From Massilioclostridium coli (GTDB taxonomy: Bacteria; Bacillota; Clostridia; Oscillospirales; Ruminococcaceae): 64,000 nucleotides of DNA. Within the stretch, counting starts at the first letter, position 1, and each line of letters begins with the position of its first letter. The DNA is taken from the NCBI RefSeq assembly GCF_900095865.1, contig NZ_FMIZ01000006.1, positions 124,001-188,000 of the forward strand, read 5' to 3'. The notes under the pieces are model-generated. The model ran no database searches. It was not told where the DNA came from and worked only from the letters and a program-made list of their open reading frames with translations. Positions 36,040 through 62,792 of this stretch are shown piece by piece. A program made the translations under genes and the position numbers.

Positions 36040-36378
36040 ATGAACCAAACGGTATACGCACATTTTACTGACCATCAGACCGCTATGCAGGCTTTGCGGG
36101 ATGCCAAACAGCACTTTGCCATACAACAGGCAGATTGTTCTGGAAGTTCCAACGTTTCTGCAACGGTTACCATGGATGTGCCCCCCGAAAAATTTGCCGA
36201 CCAAACGGTGGGTGGAATTTCCGCACCGGTGTATATGACTGGACCAAACACCAAAGCTTCTGTCACCCTGGATCAGAGCGGCGACTATACCGTTGCGCTA
36301 ACAGCGGATGAACAGGAATCTAAAACAGTTGCTTTGTTTTTACAAGCAAGAGGCGGACAAAATGTAAAAATCCGATAG
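36040..36378 (+). CDS. Hypothetical protein, possible ferredoxin-like fold
   Basis: 112 residues, soluble, not recognised. The N-terminus (TVYAHFTDHQTAMQALRDAK) has the beta-alpha pattern seen in YflT-like general stress proteins, in which a protein senses or handles a small ligand, but the rest (SATVTMDVPPEKFADQTVGG, then SVTLDQSGDYTVALTADE) does not match well. AGAAAGGA lies before the ATG. It is followed by an S1-domain gene whose leader starts within 20 bp of this stop. Confidence 0.6.
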   Translation: MNQTVYAHFTDHQTAMQALRDAKQHFAIQQADCSGSSNVSATVTMDVPPEKFADQTVGGISAPVYMTGPNTKASVTLDQSGDYTVALTADEQESKTVALFLQARGGQNVKIR

Positions 36379-36394
36379 CCAAATACGCATAAGT

Positions 36395-36447
36395 TATAAA
36401 ACCTCCGAATACAATGGAATATCTGAAAAAATCAAGGAGGTTTTATA
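36395..36447 (+). promoter_or_regulatory. Ribosome-site-sequestering inverted repeat before the S1-domain gene
   Basis: A perfect 12-bp inverted repeat, TATAAAACCTCC (36395-36406) and GGAGGTTTTATA (36436-36447), with a 29-nt loop. The second arm contains the whole Shine-Dalgarno sequence AAGGAGG of the gene starting at 36451, so the folded RNA would hide it. The T4 stretch in the second arm could also let it act as a weak terminator for the upstream gene. Confidence 0.7.
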
Positions 36448-36450
36448 ACA

Positions 36451-37386
36451 ATGCGATTTTATCCAGAAGGATTGCTTTACCATCAGCCGGAAAACAAACT
36501 GGGGATTTCTACTCCATTCCAGCTGAAAGAAAGTATGGCATCCCAAAAAATATTGGAAAGCAAAGCGATCCTCTGCGACAGCCAGCACAACCTTGTGGTA
36601 CAACTGGGCTGTATGAAAGGGTTCATCCCCCGGGAAGAAGGGGCAATTGGTATCGGGGAGGGCACCACAAAGGATATTGCGTTAATTTCCAAAGTAAACA
36701 AGCCAGTATGTTTTGTAGTAACCGGTTTTCAAGAACAAAATGGGGAAACCATAGCTTTACTATCCCGCAGGAAAGCGCAACAGATTTGTTATAGGGAATA
36801 CATAAATCAACTAGCTCCAGGGGATATCATCCCCGCTGTTGTTACTCACTTGGAACCTTTTGGTTGTTTTGTGGATATTGGTTGTGGCATTCCCTCATTA
36901 ATTCCCATTGATGCGATTTCTGTTTCCCGAATCTCCCATCCAAAAGACCGTTTTTGGGTTGGACAGGAAATTCGCACCATTGTCCGTTCCTTGGACGAAA
37001 ATGGGAGGGTATTCCTATCTCACAAAGAGCTGCTTGGAACCTGGGAGCAAAATGTTTCCCAATTCCATGCTGGTGAAACTGTGGGCGGTATTGTCCGTTC
37101 CATAGAGAGCTATGGTATCTTTGTGGAACTTACACCAAACCTGGCTGGTTTAGCGGAATACAAAGAAGGGGTACAGGCAGGGCAAAATGCCAGCATTTAT
37201 ATTAAAAGCCTTATCCCGGAAAAAATGAAAATTAAGTTAATTATTGTAGATGCATTTGATGCTCCTCCTACCAAACCGGAAGTACAATATTTTATTGATG
37301 AGGGGCATATCGACCATTGGTGCTATTCCCCCGACTGTTGCAGTAGGATGATTGAGACAAATTTCCAGTTTCCATTAGAGGAATAA
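36451..37386 (+). CDS. S1 RNA-binding domain protein
   Basis: 311 residues. At least two, probably three, S1/OB-fold domains: a divergent one (about 40-110, CMKGFIPREEGAIG), a clear one (about 122-190, GDIIPAVVTHLEPFGCFVDI) and another (about 208-265, GETVGGIVRSIESYGIFVEL). The C-terminus has GHIDHWCYSP, a conserved ending in this clostridial family. It is shorter than ribosomal protein S1 and probably binds mRNA. Its ribosome site is buried in a hairpin, which suggests translational control, perhaps autogenous as for ribosomal S1. The last 95 bp overlap the convergent downstream gene. Confidence 0.87.
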   Translation: MRFYPEGLLYHQPENKLGISTPFQLKESMASQKILESKAILCDSQHNLVVQLGCMKGFIPREEGAIGIGEGTTKDIALISKVNKPVCFVVTGFQEQNGETIALLSRRKAQQICYREYINQLAPGDIIPAVVTHLEPFGCFVDIGCGIPSLIPIDAISVSRISHPKDRFWVGQEIRTIVRSLDENGRVFLSHKELLGTWEQNVSQFHAGETVGGIVRSIESYGIFVELTPNLAGLAEYKEGVQAGQNASIYIKSLIPEKMKIKLIIVDAFDAPPTKPEVQYFIDEGHIDHWCYSPDCCSRMIETNFQFPLEE

Positions 37387-38098
37387 TACCACCAATATCA
37401 TAAAGCCGGCTAGCACTTCCTTCTACAATAGATACGCCATGTTTTTCACAAAATCTGCGGATGGTTTCCCCATCTGGATGGGAACACAGTTTTCCCGTCA
37501 GATAAAGCAGATTTTCCGCTATTTTTCCACAGCAGCCACCAATAAACCCAGTATCATAACCTGGTAATTCAATCCATCCGCTTTGTATTTTTAACACATC
37601 AAATCCAAACTGTTGAAATTTCCGGAACAACCCAACATCCGCGGTAATCACCGCATTCTGTTGCACAATAGCTACTGAACACTTGGTATATCCTTGTTTG
37701 ACCGAAATTTTCGTACAATTTTGTAAGCCAATTTCCAACCCAGGTGAATCCTGATGAAACCTGCCGAATAAATAACCTCCAACACGGCAGCTATCATACA
37801 GGATATCACCTGGGTATTTTGCTGTTAAACGGATTTTTGGTGGAATAATAGAAGCTCCATACTGTTTCAATAATTCCCCTACCTCTGATTGGTAAACCGC
37901 TACTTGTTCCCGCTGGATATGTTGTAATAACAAATCAGCATGGGAACATACTGGTTTTGCCAAATCATCACAGGGAGGGATAGGAATCACCGTAATCCCT
38001 TTTTCCTGTAAATCCTGTATCACCCAATCCGCTAAACTTGATACTGCTGTCAAACTTACTTTCGACTGGGGCAAATGGGGAGTTTCAATCCATTTCAT
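37292..38098 (-). CDS. GME-fold-like protein (DUF6873 type)
   Basis: 268 residues, soluble. Segments such as PGDILYDSCRVGGYLFG, VKQGYTKCSVAIVQQNAVITADVG and PGYDTGFIGGCCG resemble a clostridial family described as having a guanidino-modifying-enzyme (amidinotransferase-like) fold with unknown reaction. The cysteine-rich FIGGCCGKI loop is notable. The 3' end overlaps the S1-domain gene by 95 bp on the opposite strand. TAGGTGAGACG precedes the ATG. Family identity moderately sure, function unknown. Confidence 0.65.
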   Translation of the reverse strand: MKWIETPHLPQSKVSLTAVSSLADWVIQDLQEKGITVIPIPPCDDLAKPVCSHADLLLQHIQREQVAVYQSEVGELLKQYGASIIPPKIRLTAKYPGDILYDSCRVGGYLFGRFHQDSPGLEIGLQNCTKISVKQGYTKCSVAIVQQNAVITADVGLFRKFQQFGFDVLKIQSGWIELPGYDTGFIGGCCGKIAENLLYLTGKLCSHPDGETIRRFCEKHGVSIVEGSASRLYDIGGIIPLMETGNLSQSSYCNSRGNSTNGRYAPHQ

Positions 38099-45191: not shown

Positions 45192-45374
45192 TAAAAATTA
45201 GCAAATAGGATTTTAAACAAATCCAAATTGATATATTATTTAAAAAAATGGCTCTTTAAAAGAAAAGTTTAATCATATACTTTTTATCAGTTACTAAGAT
45301 ATTCTATATTAGTATTTTATAAAAACTATTAATATAGAAGGCTAAAATAGATTTTTATAATACATGATAAATAA

Positions 45375-45407
45375 TAAAAAACGCTCTGATTTCTCAGAGC
45401 GTTTTTT
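45375..45407 (-). terminator. Rho-independent terminator of the second GH78 gene
   Basis: Same hairpin as at 2322-2354 (arms AACGCTCTGA/TCAGAGCGTT, TTTC loop), 19 bp past the stop codon. Confidence 0.88.
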
Positions 45408-45425
45408 ATTATGATAATTTACTCA

Positions 45426-62549: not shown

Positions 62550-62758
62550 CTAAAAATCTAGTTGAAGAAAGAATAAATAAAATCATAGAAAATAAACCTT
62601 TTTTAATAAAAAGGGAAATAAAAGATTATTCTAAAAACATATCTTACAATAAATACTCTAGCCATGATCTTCTTTCCGTAATTGATTTGCTTCTTTAAAA
62701 TTAAGAGACTTGTATATCATTTATTTTAGATGGAATAAAATCGAAAAGAAAACAAAAA

Positions 62759-62792
62759 ATATCCCGGTATTCTAAAATACCGGGATATTTTT
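62759..62792 (-). terminator. Terminator of the DUF1540-type gene
   Basis: Perfect 11-bp stem ATCCCGGTATT/AATACCGGGAT with A/T runs on both sides, 10 bp past the stop. Confidence 0.85.

Follow-up and report, generated by a model that had tools for sequence, protein, structure and literature searches.

Through computational analysis of a 64-kb window (the whole stretch of DNA under study), a perfect inverted repeat has been identified over the start site of an S1-domain protein gene; judged from the sequence, it most probably represents a lock on read-through messages that is embedded in a sporulation promoter (probability about 0.72). The repeat overlaps a conserved promoter, its left arm coincides with the spacer of that promoter, and complementarity between spacer and ribosome site recurs across many genomes and several sigmaE genes. 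The transcription start, the read-through RNA and the translational block, as we infer them, would be connected in the following way. During sporulation, a sigmaE-type promoter at 36386-36416 would drive the S1-domain gene in the mother cell, and this transcript would start near 36422, past the left arm, leaving the ribosome site free. Polymerase arriving from the upstream gene (36040-36378) would copy the promoter spacer into a longer RNA. There the spacer would base-pair with the Shine-Dalgarno region, the -35 region would do so with the start codon, and translation would be blocked. The promoter spacer would have a second role as anti-Shine-Dalgarno, and translation would be open only to messages initiated by sigmaE.

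Inverted repeat over the start site

The left arm of the repeat, GTTATAAAACCTCC, occupies positions 36393-36406 and the right arm, GGAGGTTTTATAAC, its perfect complement, positions 36436-36449 (forward strand, as for all features below unless stated otherwise). Read directly from the sequence, the arms form 14 perfect base pairs around a loop of 29 nt, so that the perfect repeat of 12 bp reported over the ribosome site in the first-pass annotation is real and longer than claimed. Past a small internal loop, five further pairs join CGCAT (36386-36390) with ATGCG (36451-36455), the latter containing the start codon of the S1-domain gene. The Shine-Dalgarno sequence of this gene is read as AAGGAGG at 36434-36440, and the right arm covers its GGAGG portion (36436-36440); the left arm would therefore be an anti-Shine-Dalgarno in read-through RNA. 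The predicted RNA fold of 36370-36480 reaches -28 kcal/mol (z -5.02), and none of 200 dinucleotide shuffles was equally stable. Perfect inverted repeats that reach 11 bp or more within 60 nt number 13 in the window, and two of them, including the one at 36393-36449, have a loop of at least 20 nt. Perfect inverted repeats with 4-nt loops at 45371-45412 (19 bp) and 62755-62792 (17 bp) are possibly terminators.

Predicted sigmaE-type promoter

A two-block promoter model, seeded with a sigmaE pattern, was fitted on 155 homologous S1 leaders and converged to gGcATATt, 13 nt, GCATATAAaT. Promoters were counted at a score of at least 10, and shuffles were scored with the already fitted model, without refitting. 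Under these settings a sigmaE-type promoter is predicted in 135 of the 155 family leaders as against 4.8% of shuffles; the 20 leaders scoring below 10, among them one cut by a contig edge (L048), were left out. Within the window, the model places the -35 block CGCATAAG at 36386-36393, the 13-nt spacer at 36394-36406 and the -10 block GAATACAATG at 36407-36416. The promoter scores 14.8 and presents the ATA-type -35, the CATA-type -10 and the fixed spacing of sigmaE promoters, with AATA instead of CATA in its -10. From the usual distance to the -10 block, the sigmaE transcript is expected to start at 36420-36425, near 36422.

The masking arm thus consists of the final base of the -35 block and the entire 13-nt spacer, and the first five bases of the -35 block are those that can pair with the start-codon region. 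Since the arm lies between -35 and -10, the gene's own sigmaE transcript should not contain it. The start site, earlier described as masked, would consequently be so in any RNA carrying both arms, but not in the expected sigmaE transcript, from which the left arm is missing. The predicted folding energy is -8.0 kcal/mol for the sigmaE RNA (69 nt) versus -30.3 kcal/mol for the read-through stretch (121 nt).

With the model kept fixed, 69 of the 93 S1 leaders that lie outside the family contain the promoter, compared with 5.4% of shuffles, and so do 58 of 63 new named S1 leaders. The former come from an order-level set of 94 loci, of which L360 was left out as having no start and 24 of the others scored below 10; the latter come from 80 named leaders after removal of 17 already seen, five of the remaining 63 scoring below 10. 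The same fixed model predicted promoters before spoIIIAA (20/25 leaders), spoIIID (26/30), yqfC (20/29), ylbJ (12/29), spoIVA (5/29), yabP (22/30) and spoIIM (24/27), and in none of 28 sigG leaders, as expected for a sigmaF/sigmaG gene. Promoters of sigmaE in C. difficile are described with an ATA motif at -35 and a -10 common to sigmaK, for instance CATATAAT (PMC3789822), and the fitted pattern agrees with these ATA/CATA-type elements; neither the sequence of the spacer nor the ribosome site is taken up in the passages on promoters in that paper.

The S1-domain gene and its distribution

The gene at 36451-37386 encodes a protein of 311 aa, whose S1 domain, already named in the first-pass annotation, lies at residues 122-192 and is above the Pfam cut-off (E 7.6e-18). 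Its closest solved relatives are S1 domains from bS1 chains. Among the ribosomal S1 (bS1) models listed from NCBIfam no cut-off is reached, the best score being 99.3 bits against the 624 required, and by these cut-offs the protein is not bS1. At its 3' end the gene overlaps by 95 nt (37292-37386) the 3' end of a convergent DUF6873 gene on the minus strand (37292-38098).

A homologue at E of at most 1e-60 is present in 250 of 297 family genomes, and the named relatives include Ruminococcus, Acutalibacter and Anaerotruncus together with many uncultured Clostridia. Among the near-complete genomes (completeness of 90% or more, contamination of 5% or less; 41 of 61), the three without spoIVA (G017, G036 and G065) are the same three that are without the S1 gene, although G036 has matches to yqfC, ylbJ and sigG, so its double absence may reflect an assembly gap. 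In the less complete genomes, the presence of the two genes disagrees in both directions. In G013, G020, G025 and G031, four genomes in all, no more than about 6 kb separates the S1 gene from spoIVA, which is another hint at a sporulation role. The S1-domain gene is probably a mother-cell sporulation gene.

Complementarity of spacers to their own Shine-Dalgarno regions

Perfect runs and duplex energy served to measure how well each promoter spacer matches the Shine-Dalgarno region of its own gene; the p values are uncorrected for multiple tests. Conservation of the pairing in homologues, which had been set beforehand as the refutation test, is seen above chance: runs of at least 6 occur in 39 of 135 family S1 leaders, versus 17.4 with swapped sites and 12.8 with shuffled spacers, though the long stem is rare and a run of at least 8 is found in only 7/135. 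Scanned along the family leaders, the signal has its maximum at the spacer and stays level past the start. Swaps stratified by GC content gave p 0.0005 for both runs and duplex energy, and were null in three control intervals upstream. In the swap test with similar leaders removed, one control interval fell below expectation (z -3.3); this was read as shared leader composition, and the shuffle test was therefore added. Once the genus of the window and similar leaders were removed, runs of at least 6 remained in 28 of 109 leaders versus 10.2 shuffled, while the interval from -55 to -41 in the same leaders gave 12 versus 6.0; the average effect in this analysis is small and amounts to about one base pair or roughly 1 kcal/mol. 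For 39 new dissimilar named leaders the counts were 6 versus 2.9 (p 0.028; duplex p 0.002) at the spacer and 6 versus 1.7 at -55 to -41.

When 208 non-redundant S1 leaders were taken together, the spacer had 44 runs versus 20.1 and two intervals upstream of the promoter had 24 versus 12.2 and 27 versus 13.0; downstream of the start no interval showed a clear long-run excess, and one showed a mean shift (z 2.5). Since upstream intervals are also enriched in several sets, the complementarity signal is not confined to the spacer. Intervals upstream of the promoter, like the spacer itself, occur in read-through RNA only. A second zone of complementarity is seen upstream of the promoter, 42-70 nt 5' of the -10, and is strongest outside the family.

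Replication outside the family is mixed. Spacer runs of at least 6 were found there in 13.0% of leaders versus 12.2% of shuffled ones; swaps gave p 0.018 and 0.001, which were not significant once similar leaders were removed, and the shuffle test gave p 0.01 and 0.0025, with an interval further upstream at least equally strong. The sister species, which is the other genome of the genus (L002), keeps the promoter with a perfect spacer run of only 6, and it also pairs GCATAAGT with ACTTATGC between its -35 and the start codon.

Other sporulation genes and the question of chance

Five genes chosen as controls, spoIIIAA, yqfC, spoIIID, ylbJ and spoIVA, together had runs of at least 6 in 15 of 83 promoters versus 5.6 shuffled (83 kept of 142 starts, those with no start or a score below 10 being removed). 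Swaps in this set gave p 0.0015 for runs and p 0.016 for duplexes, and p 0.043 in one upstream interval. The signal sits in spoIIID and, weakly, in yqfC; it is absent in spoIIIAA, in ylbJ, which by coordinates is divergent from yqfC in several genomes, and in the 5 spoIVA promoters. The signal was clearest for yabP and spoIIM, fetched later and analysed with unchanged settings (46 kept of 57 starts): the count was 17/46 versus 4.5, with a duplex energy of -9.3 versus -6.7 kcal/mol (p 0.001), and the interval from -55 to -41 gave 6 versus 1.7. When the sites of one gene were exchanged among genomes, the result was p 0.0008 (runs) and 0.0002 (duplex) for yabP and p 0.0004 and 0.0002, respectively, for spoIIM; the upstream interval was null in these swaps. 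The 55 sigmaA-like promoters that were left once similar ones had been taken out yielded nothing significant (p 0.15 and 0.31). The sigG leaders of the same genomes have upstream complementarity, with runs of at least 8 in 5 of 28 versus 0.6 expected. In these leaders (L495-L524) the long complementarity between upstream sequence and ribosome site extends up to 12 bp (L518), as proposed for B. subtilis.

The strongest competing explanation is chance or composition: C-rich spacers may match G-rich Shine-Dalgarno sites without function, the 14-bp repeat being an extreme draw. Small average effects, the many homologues (most of them) without a long stem and the weak order-level set all favour it. 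It is nevertheless unlikely, because shuffles that keep composition and swaps that keep the parts are both beaten in the family S1, yabP and spoIIM leaders, and because the spacers track unusual Shine-Dalgarno sites, as with ACACTCCTTAA and TTAAGGAGTGT (L530), TACCCCTTTA and TAAAGGGGTA (L562), and ATTCCCCCG and CGGGGGAAT (L565).

The upstream gene and read-through

The expected source of read-through RNA is the co-directional gene at 36040-36378, which encodes 112 aa with no Pfam or NCBIfam match. Its stop lies 14 nt before the left arm, and no terminator was called between them. A co-directional homologue of this gene is found in 62 of 155 loci, with its stop at a median of 93 nt before the S1 start. 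The family comprises small proteins travelling with the S1-domain gene, with a G-G-rich motif at the C-terminus in the homologues shown. Runs of at least 6 are commoner where the homologous upstream gene adjoins (21/59 versus 14/76, p 0.007), and in the shuffle test they number 16 of 43 versus 3.3 with the upstream homologue and 12 of 66 versus 7.0 elsewhere. Of 61 leaders of the upstream gene itself, only 4 contain a sigmaE-type promoter, the rate among shuffles being 2.7%, so this gene is probably read by another sigma factor.

Labelling of the upstream strand by the longest ORF gave runs of at least 6 in 23 of 82 leaders with a co-directional ORF and in 12 of 52 with an opposite one, with no significant difference; as this labelling mislabels short genes, homology was used for the upstream gene instead. 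The same labels applied over all sigmaE genes gave 21/87 versus 24/86 (duplex p 0.038) and likewise did not separate the signal. Upstream of yabP, 13 of 22 loci carry on the same strand, and none on the opposite one, a motif which we take to be S4-type, and the longest-ORF labels are therefore unreliable at yabP. A split by terminators gave runs of at least 6 in 3 of 15 leaders with a terminator and 32 of 120 without.

The predicted openness of the Shine-Dalgarno site (n=106) is 0.429 in the sigmaE RNA, 0.334 with a shuffled spacer and 0.275 in the read-through RNA; shuffled spacers also close the site, so the fall is due partly to length and partly to the spacer. The order is the same for yabP, spoIIM and spoIIID, where the shuffle contrast gave p 0.005, 0.004 and 0.07, respectively. 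These predictions, the stronger signal beside the upstream homologue and the probable use of another sigma factor by that gene fit a lock acting on read-through RNA.

The first-pass annotation had also considered the stem as a terminator of the gene at 36040-36378; that the upstream gene matters is borne out, and the terminator role is not. Taken together, a role of the stem in terminating or attenuating upstream transcription and a role as RNA thermosensor are very improbable. The stem is strong and lies 14 nt past the upstream stop codon, and it pairs with the Shine-Dalgarno sequence as thermosensors do; against this, no U-tract directly follows the stem, AATGCGATT coming next, the terminator scan called no terminator-like site at 36393-36449, the loop is as long as 29 nt, and the Rfam search at the repeat returned four weak matches, all far under gathering scores. 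A thermosensor would moreover apply to the read-through RNA, the expected sigmaE RNA being without the arm, and is not needed. The least probable reading is the autogenous control proposed earlier, in which the S1-domain protein, in the manner of ribosomal protein S1, would bind or lose the stem and so repress or open its own start site: the RNA-binding domain of the product and the stem over the start site are in its favour, but the arm is the spacer of a conserved sigmaE-type promoter and is missing from the expected transcript, the protein reaches no bS1 cut-off, and the same arrangement precedes spoIIM, yabP and spoIIID, genes without an S1 domain.

Wider meaning and comparison with known systems

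A broader form of the read-through lock, for which the odds are about even, is that many sigmaE promoter spacers in this clostridial family evolved as the anti-Shine-Dalgarno of the gene they drive, giving a large share of the mother-cell regulon a safety catch and vegetative silence despite read-through. Locks of this kind have already been described for single genes (T4 gene e and B. subtilis sigG); what differs here is that the arm is placed in a mother-cell promoter spacer and that the arrangement recurs over genes and genomes. In those parts of the open-licence literature covered by the search, no report of anti-Shine-Dalgarno spacers across a sporulation regulon was recognised. If this repeated design is true, translation would be coupled to promoter identity in the simplest way, with the lock stored in an otherwise free spacer; the tolerance of developmental genes for read-through transcription would become easier to understand, and promoter spacers would be under a new constraint.

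Ribosomal protein S1 in E. coli autoregulates. An S1-domain protein is involved in both cases; the window protein, however, is not bS1, and the control proposed here needs no protein.

The features that define locks of the T4 gene e and sigG type can be followed in the window gene: (i) the 3' arm (36436-36449) covers the Shine-Dalgarno sequence; (ii) by sequence, the predicted start of the gene's own promoter lies downstream of the 5' arm; (iii) the pairing is kept in relatives, statistically within the family and with mixed results outside it. In phage T4, according to two reports, the ribosome sites of genes e, soc, 49 and I-TevI are hidden in long early transcripts, late promoters immediately upstream yield RNA without the 5' strand of the stem, and for gene e a 100-fold effect is reported (PMC3014915, PMC2988022). 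The T4 case relates to a phage late promoter and was shown by experiment, whereas the present one concerns a bacterial mother-cell promoter and is known from computation.

The sigG gene of B. subtilis, for which a large hairpin in read-through RNA is proposed (PMC5942855), likewise belongs to sporulation, lies behind another gene and has a sporulation promoter of its own. In both, a hairpin over the ribosome site is possible in read-through RNA only and not in RNA from the gene's own promoter. In contrast to sigG, a single gene with a sigmaF/sigmaG forespore promoter, the arrangement described here involves a sigmaE-type promoter whose spacer is itself the arm, and it extends to several genes in many genomes.
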